Shown here in pieces: positions 6,763-28,078 of a stretch of 34,664 bases of DNA. The translations under genes and the position numbers were made by a program. The stretch is from the NCBI GenBank assembly GCA_027483345.1, contig JAIXUV010000054.1:1-34664 (forward strand), in the 5' to 3' direction. Position 1 is the first letter of the stretch. Every line of letters begins with the position of its first letter. The notes beneath the pieces are model-generated. The model had not been told where the DNA came from. It saw only the letters and a list, made by a program, of their open reading frames with translations, and searched no databases. The DNA is from Verrucomicrobiales bacterium (GTDB taxonomy: Bacteria; Verrucomicrobiota; Verrucomicrobiia; Limisphaerales; UBA9464).

Positions 6763-6837
6763 TGGAGCCAGCTGTCGGGATTGAACCGACGACCAACGGT
6801 TTACAAAACCGCTGCTCTGCCGCTGAGCTAAGCTGGC
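6763..6837 (-). tRNA. tRNA-Thr (anticodon TGT)
   Basis: The minus strand folds into a complete cloverleaf. The 7-bp acceptor stem GCCAGCT/AGCTGGC is followed by discriminator T and an encoded CCA. The D arm is GCTC/GAGC; the anticodon stem GCGGT/ACCGT encloses the loop TTTGTAA; the variable loop has five bases; the T arm is GTCGG-TTCAATC-CCGAC. Anticodon TGT reads ACA and wobble Thr codons. The 3' end faces the integrase gene, making this the likely attB site. Because CCA and the T arm are intact on this side, any crossover within the gene re-created the same sequence. Confidence 0.96.
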
Positions 6838-19151: not shown

Positions 19152-20225
19152 ATGCAAAAGACGAACGACCTGCGTGTCGTCTCCGCCCGTCGCCTCCTGG
19201 CGCCAAGCGAACTCAAGCACGCGCTTCCGATGGATGTGCGCGCCAACGAAACCGTCGTGACCGGGAGGCAGACCGTGCAGCGGATCCTCCACGGCGAGGA
19301 CCCGCGCCTGCTGGTCGTGGTCGGCCCGTGTTCGATCCACGATCCCGCCGCGGCCATGGAATACGCGCGGCAGCTTTCGGCCCTCGCGGCGGAGGTGTCC
19401 GACCAGCTCTTCCTGGTCATGCGGGTGTACTTCGAGAAGCCGCGGACCACGATCGGCTGGAAGGGCCTGATCAACGACCCGCATCTGGACGGCTCCTACG
19501 ACGTGGACACCGGCCTCCGCACCGGGCGTCGCCTGCTGCTGGCCGTGAACCAGCTCGGCCTCCCGGCGGCGACGGAGTTCCTGGATCCTGTGGTGCCCCA
19601 GTACCTGGCGGACCTGGTGAGCTGGGCCGCGATCGGGGCGCGGACGACCGAGAGCCAGACCCACCGCGAGATGGCCAGCGGGCTGTCGATGCCGGTCGGT
19701 TTCAAGAACGGGACCGACGGCTCGTTGCAGATCGCGGTCGACGCGATGCTCTCCGCGCGGCATCCGCACCATTTCCTGGGCATCGACCAGGAAGGGGCGA
19801 CCTGCGTGGTCCAGACGACCGGCAACGCCGACGGCCATGTGGTCCTGCGCGGCGGCCGTGCGCGCACGAACTTCGACGCCGCGTCCATCGCGGAAGCCGC
19901 CGCAAGCCTGCGCGCCGCCAAGCTCCCCCACGGCCTCATGGTGGACTGCAGCCATGCCAACTCCGGCAAGCAGCATGCCCGGCAGGAGGACGTCTGGATG
20001 AACCTGATCGCGCAACGCGCCGAAGGCTGTGAACCGCTGATCGGCGTGATGATCGAGAGCAACCTCCACGAGGGCGCCCAACCGCTCAAGGATCCGGGAT
20101 CCCTCCAGTACGGCGTGAGCATCACGGACGCCTGCCTCGGCTGGGAAGTCACCGAGAGGATGCTGCGGCATGGCGCGGACGTTCTGCGCCGCGCCCGCGC
20201 TGCGGCGCCAGCGACCGTGGCCTGA
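19152..20225 (+). CDS. aroG: 3-deoxy-7-phosphoheptulonate synthase (class I, AroG type)
   Basis: The 357-residue product is a class I-alpha DAHP synthase. It has GPCSIHDP with metal Cys60, [15 protein letters not shown] binding phosphoenolpyruvate, [16 protein letters not shown] with the metal His, MIESNLHEG with the metal Glu, and SITDACLGW with the metal Asp. It condenses phosphoenolpyruvate with erythrose 4-phosphate, the first step of the shikimate pathway. Length matches the feedback-regulated AroF/G/H enzymes. Which aromatic amino acid inhibits it cannot be read here with confidence. No other aro gene is adjacent. It has its own promoter-like sequence. Confidence 0.95.
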
Positions 20226-20238
20226 ATCTGCCTGCGCC

Positions 20239-20418
20239 GTGGACGCACCGACACCAGCCCTGCTGTTCGCCGCGGTGGTGGGCGTGATGGCGGTGGCGAT
20301 GGCAGCCTGGCTGGTCTGGAAGGTCACCCGGCTCGCCCTGAAGCTGTTCCTCGCGGCGGGAATCCTCCTCTTGCTCGCGGGAATGGCGGTACTCGCCTTC
20401 CTCGCGTCGCGTGCCTGA
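20239..20418 (+). CDS. Small membrane protein, unknown function
   Basis: A GTG at 20239, 13 bases after the aroG stop, opens a 59-residue frame. It encodes two hydrophobic segments (about 6-26 and 37-56) separated by a short basic hinge (KVTRLALK), so a two-helix membrane hairpin. A longer version from ATG 20170 would overlap aroG by 56 bases and begin with unlikely residues. It has no known family. Regular hydrophobic pattern and tight spacing support it as real; the GC-rich composition could also produce such a frame by chance. Confidence 0.5.
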   Translation: MDAPTPALLFAAVVGVMAVAMAAWLVWKVTRLALKLFLAAGILLLLAGMAVLAFLASRA

Positions 20419-20475
20419 CGTTGGACTTCGGATCCTGTTCCGGGACCGAATCCGTTCCGGCCGGGAAACCGGATC

Positions 20476-21762
20476 TCAGCCTCGTACCTGGCCGGTACCG
20501 AACCCCTGCCACTTGTAGGTGCAGAGTTCCTCCAGGCCCATCGGTCCCCGTGCGCCGATCTTGTCGGTGCTGATTCCGATCTCGGCACCCATGCCGTACT
20601 CGGCTCCGTCGGTGAACCGCGTCGATGCGTTCCAATACACCGCCGCCGAGTCGACCTCGTGGAGGAACCGTCCAGCCACCACCGTGTCCGCGGTCACGAT
20701 GGTGTCGCTGTGGGCCGAGCCATGCCGGTGGATGTGTGCGATCGCCTCGTCCACGTCGGCAACCACGCGCACGTTGAGGACGTAGTCGTTGTACTCCGTC
20801 GACCAGTCCTCCTCCGTGGCCTCGCGGGCCTCGACGGGACGGTTGCCGGCGCCGAAGCGGATTCCCGGCAGCGCTTCCGGATCCGCGTGGAAGGCGACCC
20901 CCTTGCCCAGCAGCCTCGAGGTGACGCAAGGCAGGAATCGGGCGGCCACCGCGCGGTCCACGAGCAGCGTCTCGGCGGCGTTGCAGGTGGAGGGACGCTG
21001 GCACTTGGCGTTGAAGACGATCTCCTCCGCCATGTCGAGGTCCGCGGCGGCGTGGACGTAGACGTGGCAGACGCCCTTGTAGTGCTTGATCACCGGCACC
21101 TTGCTGCAGGCGGTGACGGCGCGGATCAAGCCCTCGCCGCCACGTGGCATGCAGAGGTCGACGCAATCGGTCTGCGACAGGAGCGCGGGGATGGCTTCCC
21201 GGTCGCTGGTGGGGACGACGAGGATGGCGTCCTCGGGGAAACCGGGAACCGCGGCGCGCGCGGCGGCAACCAGGGTCGAGGCGATCAGCCGGTTGGAATT
21301 CAACGCCTCCTTGCCTCCGCGCAGGATGGTGGCGTTCCCGGTCTTCAGGCAGAGCGAGGCGGCGTCCGCGGTGACGTTGGGACGCGACTCGTAGATGATC
21401 ACCACCACACCGATGGGGACCGCGATCTTCCGGAGGCGGAGGCCGTTCGGACGGGTTCGTTCATCGAGGACACGGCCGACCGGGTCGGGAAGCGCGGCGA
21501 CTTCGCGCAATCCCTGGGCCATGGCGGCGATCCGGCGGTCATCCAGGGCCAGACGGTCCATCATGGCGTCGGTGAGCCCCAGCGAGCGGCCAACCTCGAG
21601 ATCGGCTTCATTGGCGGTCTTCAGAGCCGGGGCGGCGGCAAGGATGGCGTCCGCCATTGCGGACAAGGCACGATCCTTCTCCGCCGTGGAAAGGCGGGCC
21701 AATCCTCGCGAAGCCGCCTTCGAGCGGAGTGCCAGGTCCCGCATCTCTTCCTGAATCGACAT
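20476..21762 (-). CDS. proA: Gamma-glutamyl phosphate reductase
   Basis: The 428-residue product is ProA, an aldehyde-dehydrogenase-fold enzyme that reduces gamma-glutamyl phosphate to glutamate semialdehyde with NADPH in proline synthesis. Signatures include VVIIYESRPNVT, KTGNATILRGGKEA, CMPRGGEGLI, and the catalytic Cys260 in QRPSTCNAAETLL. The C-terminus has EYGMGAEIGISTDK and GPMGLEELCTYKW, as expected. Length is normal. The ATG at 21762 is preceded by TAGGCT and six bases, so the message may be leaderless. The partner gene proB is not in the window. Confidence 0.97.
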   Translation of the reverse strand: MSIQEEMRDLALRSKAASRGLARLSTAEKDRALSAMADAILAAAPALKTANEADLEVGRSLGLTDAMMDRLALDDRRIAAMAQGLREVAALPDPVGRVLDERTRPNGLRLRKIAVPIGVVVIIYESRPNVTADAASLCLKTGNATILRGGKEALNSNRLIASTLVAAARAAVPGFPEDAILVVPTSDREAIPALLSQTDCVDLCMPRGGEGLIRAVTACSKVPVIKHYKGVCHVYVHAAADLDMAEEIVFNAKCQRPSTCNAAETLLVDRAVAARFLPCVTSRLLGKGVAFHADPEALPGIRFGAGNRPVEAREATEEDWSTEYNDYVLNVRVVADVDEAIAHIHRHGSAHSDTIVTADTVVAGRFLHEVDSAAVYWNASTRFTDGAEYGMGAEIGISTDKIGARGPMGLEELCTYKWQGFGTGQVRG

Positions 21763-21768
21763 GGCGGG

Positions 21769-21796
21769 AGCCTAGGTGCGGAACCCCATCGCGGAA
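21769..21796 (-). promoter_or_regulatory. Probable promoter of proA (leaderless)
   Basis: The minus strand has TAGGCT six bases (CCCGCC) before the proA ATG, the same geometry as at the HAD-Nudix gene. A weak -35 candidate TTCCGC lies 16 bases upstream. The -10 is convincing by recurrence; the -35 is not. Confidence 0.5.
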
Positions 21797-21815
21797 GACG
21801 AAAAACCGTCCACCA

Positions 21816-21831
21816 CCAGCACCGATGCTGG
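21816..21831. repeat. Inverted repeat upstream of the sigma-54-like promoter
   Basis: CCAGCA and TGCTGG flank CCGA. The dyad lies 20 bases before the -24 element and could be an activator-binding site, although enhancers of sigma-54 promoters usually lie farther upstream. Confidence 0.35.
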
Positions 21832-21851
21832 AGGTCTCACGGAAATGCGAC

Positions 21852-21867
21852 TGGCACGCCTCTCGCT
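21852..21867 (+). promoter_or_regulatory. Sigma-54 (RpoN) type promoter
   Basis: TGGCACGCCTCTCGCT matches the RpoN consensus TGGCACG-N4-TTGCW at every fixed position except one (C for the second T of TTGC). The GG (-24) and GC (-12) pairs have the exact spacing. Predicted transcription starts near 21878 and runs into the structured stretch that ends at 22016. No protein gene follows on this strand before 22994. Confidence 0.5.
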
Positions 21868-21877
21868 ACAACTCTAA

Positions 21878-22016
21878 TCGGCAGTTGTGGATGGTCTGGC
21901 TTGTGCGCACGGAGTAGAAAATTGCGCTACTCAACCAACCTCCGTGCGTGCGGGATCAAAAACAGCCGCCGGTCCCTCCAAGGCGGTCGCAGTCGAGTGA
22001 TTGCGACCGCCTTTTT
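21878..22016 (+). ncRNA. Candidate structured small RNA
   Basis: This stretch has no gene on either strand but is bounded by a sigma-54-like promoter and an intrinsic terminator, both on the plus strand. It can form a 12-bp stem at 21903-21914 with 21940-21951 (two G-U pairs), enclosing an alternative inner hairpin GAGTAG/CTACTC at 21912-21917 and 21927-21932. CCGCC at 21966-21970 could pair with GGCGG at 21982-21986 and so compete with the terminator. A hairpin CTACAACT/AGTTGTGG at 21866-21890 straddles the predicted start. The start site is an estimate (about 12 bases after the -12 element). It resembles no family I can name. An 8-codon frame (21891-21917) ends in TAG inside it and may be coincidental. 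Confidence 0.5.
21980..22016 (+). terminator. Strong intrinsic terminator without an upstream gene
   Basis: A perfect 12-bp stem (AAGGCGGTCGCA with its complement) encloses a 10-base loop and is followed by TTT after the TT of the stem, giving CCTTTTT. The T-run is only on the plus strand. The nearest upstream gene on that strand ends at 20418, beyond the opposite-strand proA, so the terminator most likely serves an RNA gene. Confidence 0.85.
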
Positions 22017-22134
22017 CCGTTCAAAACGGGCTTCATTGAATTCCTAGGGTATTCCTCAGCCGCCACGCGAGCGCGACGTGACATTCGTCACGTGACACGC
22101 AGGAAGACTCCGCGCCGGAGGGCTGGGAAACCGA

Positions 22135-22845
22135 TCAAGCCGGACGGATCAGCAGTTCCTCGATGACGGCGCGCTTGGGCAAGGTCGCCGAGAACAGGAC
22201 GCAGGCGGCGATGTCCTCGGGCATCATCATGCGGGCCCTCGCGGTTGCGTCGGGAACAACAGGACGCTTGCTCAGCAGCGGGGTGTCGATGTCGCCGGGA
22301 AAGATCCCAATGGCCCGCACCCCGTTGGGGCGTTCCTCGGCATTGATCGCCTGGGTGAGGCCGGCGAGGCCGAACTTCGAGATCACGTAGCCGGGGCCGG
22401 CCTTGGGGGAAGCCTGCTTCCCGGCATCGGAGATAATGTTGACGATCGTGCCGGCGCGTCGTGCCCGCATCCCAGGTAGGAACGCCTGCACGCAATGGTA
22501 GGCGCCGTCGAGGTTGGCGCCGACCATCGAACGGTAGTCCTCCATGGTCAGCACCTCCAGCGACCGCTTGGGCACGTTCGTGCCGGCCGCGTTGACGAGC
22601 AGTTCCACGACGGGATGGGTTTCGAGGATCGTACGAGCGACCGTCTGGACCTGGACCCAGTCGGCGATGTCACAGGAGACGGCCTCGATCCGGCCGGCCG
22701 CGCTGCCCGCAAGGGAACGGGTTTCTTCAAGGGCCTCCTTCCGGCGTCCGAGGATCGTGACTGTCCAGCCGGCATCGACGAGGGCGAGCGCCGTGGCCCG
22801 CCCGACACCGGAACCGCCTCCGGTCACCACCGCATGTTGATTCAT
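22135..22845 (-). CDS. Short-chain dehydrogenase/reductase
   Basis: The 236-residue product is a classical SDR. It has TGGGSGVG at 8-15 binding the dinucleotide, GRRKE after strand 2 (suggesting NADP preference), NAAG at 85-88, and the catalytic Ser139, Tyr153 and Lys157 (GYVISKFG). It probably reduces or oxidises a small carbonyl or alcohol. IFPGDIDTPLL is the usual substrate-loop start. Substrate unknown. It starts at the ATG 22845, six bases after TAGCCT, and is divergent from the large sensor kinase. Confidence 0.93.
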   Translation of the reverse strand: MNQHAVVTGGGSGVGRATALALVDAGWTVTILGRRKEALEETRSLAGSAAGRIEAVSCDIADWVQVQTVARTILETHPVVELLVNAAGTNVPKRSLEVLTMEDYRSMVGANLDGAYHCVQAFLPGMRARRAGTIVNIISDAGKQASPKAGPGYVISKFGLAGLTQAINAEERPNGVRAIGIFPGDIDTPLLSKRPVVPDATARARMMMPEDIAACVLFSATLPKRAVIEELLIRPA

Positions 22846-22851
22846 CCGGGG

Positions 22852-22857
22852 AGGCTA
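22852..22857 (-). promoter_or_regulatory. Probable -10 box of the SDR gene
   Basis: TAGCCT lies six bases (CCCCGG) before the ATG, the same geometry as at proA and the HAD-Nudix gene. No -35 match is visible at the expected distance, so this rests on the shared position only. Confidence 0.4.
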
Positions 22858-22993
22858 TCCCGCGTAACCCGCCGGGGGCCAGCCGGACCTGATCCGGATG
22901 CGACCGACGGCAAGCCCGATCCAACTTGCGGGGACAGTTCAAGGTCGATGAGAGGACTGGCCTCGGAACCACGACGAAGCCATCCTGCTGACC

Positions 22994-25900
22994 GTGTTCC
23001 ACCTCCGCGCCCGCAGTGAGGCTTCCTCGCGAGCCCGTTCCCATGGGAACGGCTGCAAGGCCTGCTGCACGGCTGCATGGATCCTCCTGCTGACCCATTT
23101 TTTCGGGGCGTCCATCGGTGGCATGCTTCGGGCGGACCGGATCGACGTCCGGGTCGTGCTCCACGAACCCGACGCGGGGCTCACCTGGTTGCTCAACGGA
23201 ACGCGACTCCAGGCGATCCCGCATCCGGGCGGCTCCTTTCCGATCCGTCCCGGCAGCCATGTCAGCGTCGATGTGCCGGAAGGCGCCCCGCAGGTGGTGC
23301 CATTGCCCGGCGGGTTGAAGTTCCATGCGCTTCCGGACCTCCGGATTCCGCCGGCACCCCAGCTCCCCTTCCATTTCAGCCAACCCCTTCGTGTCGAGAC
23401 CTGGGCGACACTGGACGTGGTGGTGTTGGCCACCCGCAGCGTGGGTGGCCGCGGCGTCCTCGACATCCTCGCCAACGGCGAACCGGGACTGCTCGAGATC
23501 CAGGGACCGGGGCCGGTCGTCACCCCGCCGGCCCTCTCGGTGCTCCGGGCCACGGGCGTGGCCGTGCCTTCGCGGGTCGAGGGCGGTGCCGTGGCGCGGC
23601 CGTTCCGCCTCCTTGTCGATTCCATGGACAGCGTCCGCGAGCTTTCGCCGGATCTCGCGCCTGCGTTCCCGGGCCCGTTCAACAGGCCGGAGGATTTCGA
23701 ACCGACGTCGGTGGGGGAAGGAGTCCAACTGCGCGGCACGGTCACCTCGGTGGCGACCCCGAATCGGTTTGAGGTGGAAATGCCGGGACGCCGGGTTGCC
23801 GTCGAGCATGCCCTGCCCCGGCCGCCTCGAAGCGGCGCGCTGGTGGAACTCGTGGGCGAACTCCATCCGCCCGGCGCCGGCACCGGGACCTGGCGTCTTG
23901 CCCGGGCCCTATTCCGAGAAATCGGCAACGCCACCGGCGGGGCGGCCGAAACCTTGGTGCCGGTGATCCATTCCATCGAGGAGGTCCGCCGACTCACTCC
24001 GGAGATGGCCGGCCGGAATCTTCCTGTGGCCGTCGTCGCCGCGGTGACCGGGGACTACACGCGCTTCGGAGAAAAGGTCCTCTTCCTTCAGGATGAGACC
24101 GGGGGGATCTACTCCTATCCGGGGACAAACGTCGCCAACCACGCCATCGGCGAGGAAGTCCGAGTCATAGGCACGACCGGCGCCGGGCTCTTCGTTCCGG
24201 AGATCTTGGCCGGAGAAATCCGGCCGCTGGGCACCCGACGTGCGATCCGCAGCACGCCCGCCGAGATCGGGGTCCTCAAGAGCGGGCTCTTCGACAGCCA
24301 ATGGGTGGAGATCGCCGGCCTAGTCACCCGTGTGTGGTTCAAAGACGGGATGCCACGACTCGAGCTGACGGACGGGGTGGAACCGATCGAGGTTCGCATC
24401 GGAACCACGGAACCACCGACCCACCTGCTCGAGACCCTGGTCCGCATCCGAGGGGTCGCAGCGACCGCCTACAACGCGAGGCGGCAGGCGGAGGGCGCGT
24501 TCCTCTGGTGTCCGTCGGAGATGTTCATCCACGCGGAGGAGCCGGCCGGGCGCGATCCCTTTGAGACCCCGTCCAAGCCGATCGCCTGGCTCAGGAACTT
24601 CCAGCAGATGTCCCGCGGTCCAACCCGGGCGCACGTCCAGGGGGTCCTGACCGCAGTGGCACCGGACGGCCGGGCCATCGTCCAAACCGGCTTTGACGCC
24701 TTGCAGGTGCTGGCCGCCACTCCCGTGGCGGAGGTCCCGGGAACGGAGGTCGATGTCGTCGGCCTGATCGGATGGAACGGGGCGCGTCTCGAAATGAGGC
24801 GGGCGCAGATCCGGTCCCGCGGGCCCGCGGCGATGCCCCCCGCGGTGCCGCTCAGCGCCCGAAATACAATAGCCGAGTTCGACGGCATCCGGTCGCAGGT
24901 CGAAGGCGAGGTGCTGAGCGTGAACCTGGAAGAAGGCCGGATGCGCCTCCTGCTCATGGAAGAACAGCCCGTCCAGGTGATCGTCCCCCGGTTCACCAAC
25001 CGCCTCTACCAGGCGGACCTCTCACCCGGGATGCGGATCCGGGCCGAAGGCGCCAGACTCAACCGCCTGGATTCCGAGGGGCATGTCGACGGCCATGAGC
25101 TCCTGCTGGGACTTCCCTCCGATCTCCAGATCCTCGAGCGGGCGCCATGGTTGACCTGGAGCAACGCGGCAACAACGCTCGGATCCGCGGGAGTCGCGGG
25201 TCTGGCGGCCTTGGCCTGGATGCGGAGCCTGCGATCCAAGGTCCGTCAGCAGGCCGCCGAGATCGATGCCCGGTACCGCCTCCAGGCGGAGCTGGAGAGG
25301 CGCAATGCGGAACTGGTCGAACAGGCGGGCGAAGTCATCCTCGAGCTCGAACCCGACGGTCGGATACGCTCTGCGAACCCCGCGGCGGGGCGCATCTTCG
25401 CCCAGACGTCGACGGGACTGGTAGGCCTGCTTCTGCCCGACCTCGCCCCTGTTGGAGACCGCACTCGGATCCAGGAGGCCTTGGACTCGGCGGCCCGCGG
25501 CGCCGTCGAATCGGTGCAGTTCCCGGTGCCCTTCGACGGCCCGGCGGTCCGGTGGATTGAGCTGCGCCTCCAGACGTTCGGAAGCCTTGCCAGCCAACCC
25601 CTGCTCGGCGCGGTCGGTCGGGATGTCTCGGACCGCAAGCAGGCCGAGATGGCCCTCCGCCAAAGCGAACAGAACCTGAGGAAGATCATCGAGTTCCTCC
25701 CGGACGGAGTGGTGCTTCTCGACGAACGCGCGGTGATCCGGTTCCAGAACCGCCGGGCCGGTACGCTGCTGGGGTACCCGGCGGACGGGTTGGTCGGGCG
25801 CCCGGTGGGCATCCTCCGCAACGCAACCCTCGAAACCTGGGCCCTCGATCTCATCCAGTCCACGGACCACGGGTCAACCACGGTCCAGTCCGGGGATCTC

Positions 25901-28078
25901 CAGACCCTCGTCCTTGCACGGATCGAGGGAGCGGAACTGCAGGCGGACGTGTCGATCGGGGTCGTCCGCCGCTCGGATTCCCGGTCCTGCCTGGTGAGTT
26001 TCAGGGACGCCTCAACCCGGATCGCGGCGGAAGAAGCCCTCCGGAGTCAGGCGATGATGGCCCGGGTGGAGTCCGAGGTGTCCCGGATGGTCGGACTGGC
26101 CGACGATTCGGAGACCCTGCTGCGGAAATGTGCTGAGATCCTGGTTTCGTTGGCTGGAGCCACGGTGGTTCGGGTCTGGATCCGGGGAGTCCGCGATGCC
26201 GAACCACGTCTGGTGGCCGCCGCCGCCGAACAGGACCTCCCCTGCACCCCGGCGGCCCTTGGCGGCCCGGCGGCCTGTTGCATCGAATTGCTTCAGGGCT
26301 CGGGCGAGGCCCGGCAGATCCTCCACCTCGCCGCCGAACCGGGAATGGCGACGGCTTCGCTGCGCGGCCTCACGACGTGCGGACTCCACCCGTTCGCCGC
26401 GGGCGATCTCGGGAACGGCGTCCTGGAGGTCTATTCACGCGGCCCGTTTCCTGCGCTGGTCGCCGGAAACCTCGCGGTCGTCACCTCAACCCTCGCCGGC
26501 GGACTGCTGCGGGTCCAGGCGGTGACCCAGCTCAACCGCTCCAATTCAAAGCTCAGGGCCCTGCTCGATTCGACACCGGTGGCCATCGTGGAAGTGGATG
26601 CCGAGGTCCGTGTCCTGGACATCAACCCCGCGGCGGAGAAGCTCTTCCGGCACACCGAACGACAGGCGCGAGGACTCCCGTTTGGCATCCTCTCCGGCTG
26701 CGACGACGCCACGCACCGCCGACTCCAGGAAGTCGGCCGTGGTGCCGGTCCGGTCTCGGGACTCGAGATCACGCTGCTGCACGGCGATGGTTCCAAGACG
26801 CCCTGCAGCCTGTTCGCGGCCTCGGCGACGGCTTCGGGCGGGCCGGCATCGGAGACGGTCTGCGTCCTCGTCGATCTCACGGAGCAACGTCGGATCGAAG
26901 CCGAATCCGAACGGATCCAACGGAAGCTGCGCGACGCCCAGCGGCTCGAGAGCCTCGGCGTCATGGCCGGCGGGATCGCCCACGATTTCAACAACATCCT
27001 CGGATCGATCCTGGGCAACGCGAACCTCGCCGCGGCCACGGCCGCGGGGAAGGACGAGCTGCTCGACCACATCCACGAGATCGAACGGGGAGCCCAACGT
27101 GCCGGGGAACTGTGCCGGCTGATGTTGGCCTACGCCGGCCAGGCCGGTATCGGCAAGCAGTCTTCCGACCTCAACGAGATCGTCCGGGACACGCTCCGGC
27201 TGCTCCGGCATGGCATCTCGAAGCTGGCGGAGGTGCGGCTGGATCTCGCGGAACCCCTGCCCTGGGCCCCCCTCGACACCGCCCAGGTCCGACAGGTGGT
27301 CATGAACCTCGTCGCCAACGCCTCCGACGCCCTGGGCGAGGGTCCCGGTGTCATCGGCATCCGGACCGCGATCCACGTCCCGGGCGACACCTCCCCGCCG
27401 AGCGCCGACATCCCCTCCGGCCGCCACATCCTGCTCGAGGTCTCCGACACCGGTTGCGGCATCGAGGAATCCGTGGTCTCCCGGATCTTCGATCCGTTCT
27501 TCACCACCAAGTTCGCCGGACGCGGACTCGGCCTGGCCGCGGTCTGGGGCGTCGTGAGGGGACACGACGGACACATCGCCGTTCACAGCGTACCCGGCGC
27601 CGGATCCACATTCCGGGTCTGGATCCCGGCCCCGGAGGAGGTCGGCCGCCCAGCCCCGGCGCCCGAGCCCGACGCTCCCACGAAGGAGGTCCCGGCCCCT
27701 CCGGGCCTCGTCGTGTTGATCGACGACGAGGCGCCGTTGCGGAGGGTGACCCGACAACTGCTCCAGAGATTCGGATACGAGGTGGTCGAGGCGTCCGACG
27801 GCGTCGACGGACTGGAAGCGGTCCTCCTGCACCGGTCACGCGATCCACTGGTCCTGCTGGACGTCACCATGCCCCGCATGGGTGGCGGCGAGGTTCTCGC
27901 CCGGATCCGGGGGGAGGCCCGGGATATCCGCGTGGTGATGATGAGCGGCTACGCCTCCGGAGGATCGACCGGGGCGGAGTTTCCGGATGCGGACGGGTTC
28001 CTCTCGAAGCCCTTCAACACCGAGGCCCTTGTCCACGCGATGAAGCAGGCGGACGAACGGCGCCGGACCCGTGCCTGA
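22994..28078 (+). CDS. Giant hybrid sensor histidine kinase with OB-like sensor repeats
   Basis: The 1694-residue protein has a basic N-terminus and hydrophobic signal segment (about 27-43). A long extracytoplasmic part (about 50-715) contains several OB-like strand-rich units (for example VLFLQDETGGIYSYPG). One membrane helix (about 726-742) and a short coiled coil follow. Then come PAS (about 775-885), PAS (about 894-1000), GAF (about 1021-1175), PAS (about 1187-1300) and a histidine-kinase core with His1330 in GGIAHDFNNILG. The ATPase domain has its N box near 1437 and FDPFFTTKF. A receiver domain has the acceptor Asp1623 in LLDVTMPRMGG and Lys in LSKPF. It senses an unknown signal in the periplasm and phosphorylates its own receiver; no output domain is present. 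GTG start at 22994, the only good one before the signal segment. Confidence 0.92.
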   Translation: MFHLRARSEASSRARSHGNGCKACCTAAWILLLTHFFGASIGGMLRADRIDVRVVLHEPDAGLTWLLNGTRLQAIPHPGGSFPIRPGSHVSVDVPEGAPQVVPLPGGLKFHALPDLRIPPAPQLPFHFSQPLRVETWATLDVVVLATRSVGGRGVLDILANGEPGLLEIQGPGPVVTPPALSVLRATGVAVPSRVEGGAVARPFRLLVDSMDSVRELSPDLAPAFPGPFNRPEDFEPTSVGEGVQLRGTVTSVATPNRFEVEMPGRRVAVEHALPRPPRSGALVELVGELHPPGAGTGTWRLARALFREIGNATGGAAETLVPVIHSIEEVRRLTPEMAGRNLPVAVVAAVTGDYTRFGEKVLFLQDETGGIYSYPGTNVANHAIGEEVRVIGTTGAGLFVPEILAGEIRPLGTRRAIRSTPAEIGVLKSGLFDSQWVEIAGLVTRVWFKDGMPRLELTDGVEPIEVRIGTTEPPTHLLETLVRIRGVAATAYNARRQAEGAFLWCPSEMFIHAEEPAGRDPFETPSKPIAWLRNFQQMSRGPTRAHVQGVLTAVAPDGRAIVQTGFDALQVLAATPVAEVPGTEVDVVGLIGWNGARLEMRRAQIRSRGPAAMPPAVPLSARNTIAEFDGIRSQVEGEVLSVNLEEGRMRLLLMEEQPVQVIVPRFTNRLYQADLSPGMRIRAEGARLNRLDSEGHVDGHELLLGLPSDLQILERAPWLTWSNAATTLGSAGVAGLAALAWMRSLRSKVRQQAAEIDARYRLQAELERRNAELVEQAGEVILELEPDGRIRSANPAAGRIFAQTSTGLVGLLLPDLAPVGDRTRIQEALDSAARGAVESVQFPVPFDGPAVRWIELRLQTFGSLASQPLLGAVGRDVSDRKQAEMALRQSEQNLRKIIEFLPDGVVLLDERAVIRFQNRRAGTLLGYPADGLVGRPVGILRNATLETWALDLIQSTDHGSTTVQSGDLQTLVLARIEGAELQADVSIGVVRRSDSRSCLVSFRDASTRIAAEEALRSQAMMARVESEVSRMVGLADDSETLLRKCAEILVSLAGATVVRVWIRGVRDAEPRLVAAAAEQDLPCTPAALGGPAACCIELLQGSGEARQILHLAAEPGMATASLRGLTTCGLHPFAAGDLGNGVLEVYSRGPFPALVAGNLAVVTSTLAGGLLRVQAVTQLNRSNSKLRALLDSTPVAIVEVDAEVRVLDINPAAEKLFRHTERQARGLPFGILSGCDDATHRRLQEVGRGAGPVSGLEITLLHGDGSKTPCSLFAASATASGGPASETVCVLVDLTEQRRIEAESERIQRKLRDAQRLESLGVMAGGIAHDFNNILGSILGNANLAAATAAGKDELLDHIHEIERGAQRAGELCRLMLAYAGQAGIGKQSSDLNEIVRDTLRLLRHGISKLAEVRLDLAEPLPWAPLDTAQVRQVVMNLVANASDALGEGPGVIGIRTAIHVPGDTSPPSADIPSGRHILLEVSDTGCGIEESVVSRIFDPFFTTKFAGRGLGLAAVWGVVRGHDGHIAVHSVPGAGSTFRVWIPAPEEVGRPAPAPEPDAPTKEVPAPPGLVVLIDDEAPLRRVTRQLLQRFGYEVVEASDGVDGLEAVLLHRSRDPLVLLDVTMPRMGGGEVLARIRGEARDIRVVMMSGYASGGSTGAEFPDADGFLSKPFNTEALVHAMKQADERRRTRA

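Follow-up and report, generated by a model that had tools for sequence, protein, structure and literature searches.

The intergenic stretch between a gene that we take to be proA, encoding gamma-glutamyl phosphate reductase, and a short-chain dehydrogenase gene in a Verrucomicrobiales bacterium raises the question whether it houses an RNA gene with a sigma-54 promoter of its own, and if so, how such an RNA might act. The window, which is the whole stretch of DNA that was analyzed, comprises the 34,664 nucleotides of contig JAIXUV010000054.1 (assembly GCA_027483345.1). The original prediction, made from these letters, described a sigma-54-dependent small RNA and had named a lack of conservation in relatives beforehand as one finding that would speak against it. 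Comparison between genomes supports the small RNA: the stems covary in 21 of 28 pairs, the promoter is present in 19 of 19 copies and the gene order with proA in 17 of 19. We regard it as probable that this element, referred to as RNA1, is a stand-alone, sigma-54-dependent and trans-acting regulatory small RNA of one Verrucomicrobiota family, and that it constitutes a new RNA family. The features of the locus are collected in Table 1.

Table 1. Positions of the features at the RNA1 locus and of the second RNA in the same genome.
Feature	Position	Strand	Basis or remark
Operator-like dyad CCAGCACCGATGCTGG	21816..21831	+	20 bp before the -24 element; self-complementary in 7 of 8 positions
Sigma-54 (-24/-12) promoter TGGCACGCCTCTCGCT	21852..21867	+	Sequence read; element kept in relatives
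Predicted RNA1 transcript, about 139 nt	21878..22016	+	Putative start about 12 nt past the -12 GC; end at the terminator T-run
RNA1 conserved core	21876..21979	+	Covariance model R1 match
Lower helix P1, 5' strand	21877..21899	+	Pairs with 21953-21973
Lower helix P1, 3' strand	21953..21973	+	Folding, covariation
Upper helix P2, 5' strand GTGCGCACGGAG	21903..21914	+	Covariation
Upper helix P2, 3' strand CTCCGTGCGTGC	21940..21951	+	Covariation
Conserved apical-loop segment TGCGCTACTCAACCAAC	21923..21939	+	Candidate contact or base-pairing site
Intrinsic terminator hairpin and T-run	21980..22016	+	Terminator scan, folding
proA (gamma-glutamyl phosphate reductase, presumed), divergent neighbour	20476..21762	-	Adjacent to RNA1 in 17 of 19 genomes
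Short-chain dehydrogenase, convergent neighbour, not conserved	22135..22845	-	Gene reading
Hybrid histidine/sensor kinase, very large, 1694-aa frame; PAS, HATPase and receiver domains	22994-28078	+	
RNA2 of the window's genome	L167:276-399 (G000:C214:276-399)		Sigma-54 site TGGCATCCGAACTGC, GC hairpin, GGTCGGTTCTGGGTTG linker, terminator

Fold, conservation and distribution of RNA1

As judged by comparison of its copies, RNA1 is a conserved structured RNA whose conservation and covariation exceed chance. In the window, the fold of 21877-22020 reaches -70.9 kcal/mol (z = -5.7; none of 200 shuffles was equally low), a value to which the terminator contributes part. When RNAalifold was applied to a plain MAFFT alignment of the 19 copies (alignment A4), two helices with 28 pairs were obtained, and 21 of these pairs display two-sided changes. 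In this alignment, such changes occur in 14 of the 16 pairs of the lower helix P1 and in 7 of the 12 pairs of the upper helix P2, of which 93% of the cells are paired. Over the whole 19-copy alignment, 89.5% of the cells are paired compared with 72.4% after shuffling, the covariation score amounts to 0.551 compared with a shuffled mean of 0.244, and none of 500 shuffles equalled the alignment in any of five measures; in this control, kinship alone can beat the shuffles, although it seldom does so in the measures that count pairs. If the partner is shifted by 1-3 columns, the paired cells fall from 89.5% to 37-46%, in a test that flatters the structure, because the structure was derived from the same alignment.

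The apical loop is the best-kept stretch of RNA1, with the exact TGCGCTACTCAAC in 14 of the 19 copies of the MAFFT alignment and variants in five; this conservation is inflated, because four of the 19 copies entered via an exact search for part of the loop. An asymmetric bulge, CUGGC opposite GCGGG, is likewise conserved in the 19-copy alignment as judged by eye. An inner alternative pairing, GAGTAG/CTACTC, fared less well: by eye, it is present only in the four copies of the window's genus, and the conserved upper stem is formed by GTGCGCACGGAG and CTCCGTGCGTGC.

At the 3' end, the terminator hairpin with its T-run that had been predicted is indeed present, with 15 pairs at 21980-22013 and the T-run next to them. 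It is the sole match of the terminator scan within 20000-24000 on either strand, and shuffles averaged 2.1 sites, so that the presence of such a site does not by itself exceed chance. Clear terminators were found by script in 8 of the 19 copies (at least 6 T in 9), or in about 10 of the 19 if G025 and G066 are added by eye. In about 9 of the 19 copies no clear U-tract terminator lies within about 200 nt, and the 3' end of these copies may therefore differ or overlap the convergent gene. The pair that had been thought to compete with the terminator cannot be a conserved feature, because terminators beyond the window's genus differ in sequence and about nine of the 19 copies have none that is clear.

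RNA1 is confined to a part of one family in the searches performed. The covariance model R1, which was built from 11 sequences, matches 19 of 50 family genomes (the 11 sources and eight new ones), in a single copy each and in five of nine genera. Across the order, R1 returned the same 19 among 320 genomes. Under strict filters, no believable RNA1 was found elsewhere in the order (320 genomes) or in a sample of the class (384 genomes); distant copies may be missed, because these searches scored the best 10-12 of hundreds to thousands of first-look candidates per genome. A second model matched 8 of the 384 genomes of the class sample, comprising seven known family members and one false match. 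The match in G414 (E 2.4e-4; class sample, 384 genomes) was rejected as RNA1; it reads like protein-coding sequence and carries neither TGGCA-N9-CT nor the loop. A DNA search of 59 genomes matched seven, namely the window's genome, three congeners and one genome each of three other genera; in the last three, the match extended no further than the core of the RNA, with its loop and upper stem. When GTDB contigs were scanned for exact copies of a 21-base piece of the loop and stem, nine loci were returned, all titled Verrucomicrobiota. One of these, the contig CAMASJ010000069.1 (L012), is titled Akkermansia muciniphila; it carries the locus of the window's relatives, and its species label is probably wrong.

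The impression that the sequence belongs to no known family was borne out by Rfam. At gathering score, Rfam 15 recognizes in the whole window only a tRNA at 6766-6837 (-), and nothing at RNA1; at 21760-22140, with E up to 5, three matches were returned, all far below gathering, and seven loci (five of the second RNA described below, two of RNA1) gave no match. No published Verrucomicrobiota RNA of such kind was found among the matches listed in a search of titles and abstracts, which had subscription journals and preprints outside its scope. The accessible part of a report on sigma-54 regulons mentions Verrucomicrobiota and no small RNA (PMC12316311).

The sigma-54 promoter and its adjacent palindrome

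The near-consensus RpoN element can be upheld. The consensus of sigma-54 promoters is TGGCACG-N4-TTGCW, from which TGGCACGCCTCTCGCT departs by one difference, with the -24/-12 spacing between GG and GC being exact. In the family genomes, TGGCA-N8-GCT lies directly 5' of RNA1 in 19 of 19 copies, compared with a background of 46 exact occurrences in 2.0 million positions of family sequence, which corresponds to 0.0015 per 65-nt window. The promoter query was TGGCA-N9-CT; the G of GC was not required, yet it was found in all 19 copies. Within the window's genus, the DNA query already included the promoter of the four copies, which is near-identical among them anyway; the real test is provided by the 15 copies outside the genus, in which the promoter lies beyond both the query match and the model (R1 starts 3' of the promoter and excludes it). 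RpoN (PF04552) was identified in 46 of 50 family genomes, including that of the window (G000), and in 17 of the 19 RNA1 genomes, the two without a match being 67% (G006) and 89% (G067) complete. Since RpoN is nearly universal in the family, its presence cannot explain the distribution of RNA1.

Upstream of the promoter, a dyad had been noted which proved to be real, with 7 of 8 positions self-complementary. It matches the palindrome TTCKCA-N4-TGMGAA in 6 of 12 positions and is thus a good dyad and a poor copy of the motif, located where two congeners, G004 and G006, hold a better palindrome (score 10, with a 20-bp spacer). At this same place G000 scores 6 and G013 scores 7, and the best 12-position score of both is 8, at another place. 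Outside the genus, 14 of 15 RNA1 copies carry the palindrome with 10-12 of 12 positions, ending 8-10 bp before TGGCA, and the remaining copy (G064) has a score of 9. The mean best score at RNA1 is 9.63 compared with 5.66 in mononucleotide shuffles, a difference that is partly circular, because the RNA1 promoters are themselves the source from which the motif was derived by eye.

The step of 10 bp between the spacers suggests a protein that is bound on one face of the helix. The usual enhancer sites of sigma-54 promoters are located farther from the promoter than the palindrome of RNA1, which, being closer, may therefore not be where the activator binds. If the activator does bind there, a promoter-proximal and phase-keeping arrangement would challenge the picture of sigma-54 activators as proteins acting from remote enhancers.

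A second RNA and a possible common regulon

In the 19 RNA1 genomes, a search for the palindrome with TGGCA yielded five places (one in the reversed control), namely three RNA1 promoters and two other loci. Both of the latter combine a -24/-12 site with a short RNA-like element with a terminator, and follow a gene which we judge to be prepilin-like from its start motif, a gene order that recurs in several genomes. With two mismatches, the palindrome search of 50 genomes gave 21 places (four in the control), consisting of eight RNA1, six of this second element, termed RNA2 (G059, G062, G063, G060, G035, G028), and seven others; the matches in G009, G008 and G070 were left aside. A pattern composed of the promoter and GGTTCTGGGT was found in 26 of 320 order genomes (14 in the reversed control, of which five in the family). 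RNA2 was accepted in 18 genomes, all in the family and including that of the window (C214:276), because these copies aligned through linker and terminator. The pattern match in G011, which lacks the RNA2 shape, and seven matches outside the family look like chance and were rejected.

The terminator helix of RNA2 covaries. Its promoter and GGTTCTGGGT are conserved by construction, both being in the query, and the single-stranded GGUUCUGGGU is invariant, but part of the search pattern. The 18 copies were gathered without the palindrome, though RNA2 was first met through it; 11 of them hold the palindrome with 10-12 of 12 positions, 9-10 bp from the site, the mean best score is 9.11 compared with 5.72 in mononucleotide shuffles, and 7 of the 18 promoters (G023, G061, G025, G071, G027, G033, G072) have no palindrome score of at least 10. 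In the window's genome, the palindrome TCCTCATTTTTGAGAA (11 of 12) lies upstream of the sigma-54 site, and no Rfam match was obtained for this RNA2. When the remaining 32 family genomes were searched with R3, a model of RNA2, three more were obtained: G066, the promoter of which is clean, and G067 and G070, which lack TGGCA where it would be expected. R1 finds nothing at the 18 RNA2 loci, and R3 nothing at the 19 RNA1 loci. The description of the RNA1 promoter as an orphan was partly wrong, because RNA2 of the same genome has a promoter of similar layout. In two genomes without RNA1, weak matches of the RNA2 model (L181, G015:C68; L179, G030:C378) resemble additional sigma-54 sites, each with a short stretch behind it that ends in a terminator.

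RNA1 and RNA2 tend to occur together: 14 genomes hold both, five only RNA1, seven only RNA2 and 24 neither (Fisher p 0.0009), an association that is weaker than it looks, because related species are not independent. In the same order, the counts are 12/7/6/25 (p 0.003) with RNA2 assigned by pattern alone, and 4/0/0/15 (p 0.0003) in the window's genus. These counts include the model matches G067 and G070 and exclude the G011 pattern match and the weak model matches G068, G030 and G015; that of G068 has an E of 1e-3, yet lies after the same kind of prepilin-like gene. Direct pairing of the two RNAs was considered, as the loop AACCAACC and GGUYGGUU of RNA2 looked complementary, and was abandoned on account of the duplex energies: in 13 of 14 genomes the energy of the duplex between RNA1 loop and RNA2 linker is not below that of dinucleotide shuffles, and G061 alone reached p 0.021-0.027, through another stretch.

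RNA1 and RNA2 may form one regulon, because RNA2 often has the same layout of palindrome and promoter. Tentatively, and as a possibility that we rate somewhat below even, we propose that they are unrelated small RNAs in one sigma-54 regulon, in which a novel regulator would act on the promoter-adjacent palindrome with the helical phase kept constant (about 10 or 20 bp), in contrast to remote enhancers, and which perhaps also includes genes of PEP-CTERM surface proteins.

Among nine pattern candidates for PEP-CTERM genes in 400 kb each of G063 and G004, seven were judged credible by eye (two and five, respectively); palindrome and promoter are present at one of the seven, and the other six are without them. 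This one gene, at L111 (G004:C65:14379), has the palindrome with 10 of 12 positions, a clean sigma-54 site and a 10-bp spacer.

Mode of action and comparison with known systems

If RNA1 is transcribed as proposed, RNA polymerase with sigma-54 would bind the -24/-12 element, and a DNA-binding protein on the adjacent palindrome, presumably the activator or its partner, would time the opening of the promoter. The transcript would be a long hairpin presenting the conserved single-stranded loop UGCGCUACUCAACCAAC, with CUCC adjoining in the stem. This loop is expected to act in trans, most likely on messages to which it would pair close to their start sites, and its part AACCAACCUCC could pair with GU-rich and Shine-Dalgarno-like stretches. 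Base pairing with mRNA is our first choice for the mode of action, and protein titration the second.

According to this second mode, RNA1 would be a decoy in the manner of CrcZ/CrcY or GlmY, with its loop and internal bulge titrating an RNA-binding protein. A long hairpin in which the loop and an asymmetric bulge are both well conserved would also suit an RNA that binds proteins, sigma-54-driven decoys are known, namely CrcZ/CrcY, which antagonise Hfq-Crc (PMC6292655), and GlmY, and RNA2 offers an invariant single-stranded GGUUCUGGGU, though this is part of its search pattern. Titrating RNAs often repeat their motif; RNA1, however, contains no direct repeat of at least 7 bases and is present in a single copy per genome, and we consider a decoy unlikely, albeit worth keeping in view.

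Less probable still, and in our estimation a rather poor prospect, is an action in cis, in which RNA1 or its promoter controls proA or the convergent gene by promoter interference or 3' antisense, the fold being secondary. The divergent gene is indeed proA in 17 of 19 genomes (in G035 its copy gives an Aldedh family match), and copies without a clear terminator could run antisense into the 3' end of the convergent gene. However, RNA1 faces away from proA without overlapping it, and the exceptions comprise G067, without a proA match, and G068, which holds RNA1 and proA on separate contigs. The genes downstream of RNA1 also differ between genera, the convergent neighbour being a GFO/IDH/MocA oxidoreductase in G035 and G067 and a NAD kinase in G020, and the covariation argues for selection on the RNA itself. 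Upstream of proA, RNA1 is absent in the 18 RNA1-negative genomes examined (of 31) and also at the proA of G068, in a reading that covered 20 loci, with that of the window as control. RNA1 thus appears to come and go while proA stays, which would fit an accessory regulator, and the adjacency to proA need not imply any link in function.

That RNA1 belongs, as a leader or riboswitch, to a small + strand protein that escaped detection, as the attenuator-like succession of conserved structure and terminator might indicate, is hardly credible and was already disfavoured, as the window has no credible + strand gene for 978 bases, the convergent gene often comes next in relatives, and gaps in the alignment of RNA1 copies are often not multiples of three. 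The absence of a plus-strand gene for more than 900 bases had been stated correctly: the next credible one after the terminator is that of the hybrid histidine kinase at 22994, and a 462-aa open reading frame at 20659-22047 (+) is mostly antisense to proA.

For the preferred reading, a trans-acting small RNA, several known systems offer a comparison. Small RNAs driven by sigma-54 are known mainly from Proteobacteria. Among these, the Qrr small RNAs of Vibrio are driven by LuxO and sigma-54, act in trans and exist in several similar copies, whereas RNA1 has no Rfam match and one copy per genome. In the accessible part of the respective report, CrcZ and CrcY of the Pseudomonadaceae are described as two loci with RpoN-dependent promoters under one regulator, CbrB, the products of which antagonise Hfq-Crc (PMC6292655). 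RNA1 and RNA2 may be such a two-locus pair. CrcZ and CrcY resemble each other, whereas the models R1 and R3 miss each other's loci.

GlmY of the Enterobacteriaceae, a decoy small RNA, is likewise intergenic and, as far as the accessible text describes it, has a -24/-12 promoter and dyad sites for its regulator, with QseF binding three TGTN12ACA sites with the help of IHF (PMC6075780). RNA1 shares with this description the intergenic location, the promoter type and the upstream dyad. It differs in its palindrome, which is another one and has a spacer of 8-10 or 20 bp to the -24 element; TGTN12ACA has no exact match in the 3104 bases around RNA1 of G000 (L019), and no Rfam covariance match to GlmY/GlmZ was found at RNA1. 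Of the likeness to GlmY and Qrr that the original prediction had drawn, the promoter type stands and the remainder does not hold.

The PEP-CTERM-box promoters, which depend on PrsR and sigma-54, are similar in that a regulator motif and a sigma-54 site precede many genes, and one PEP-CTERM gene of G004 carries the palindrome. The published motif, in the accessible part of its description, differs from the palindrome in sequence (ending in TTTACA), in spacing (about 63 nt from the sigma-54 motif) and in host range, being given for Proteobacteria only (PMC1569441). RNA1 and RNA2 look like undescribed gene regulators, and an RNA family backed by covariation in an uncultured family of this phylum, accompanied by another RNA in which the promoter layout is often the same, would provide the Verrucomicrobiota with a testable RNA-based regulon and with a motif by which to search for it.
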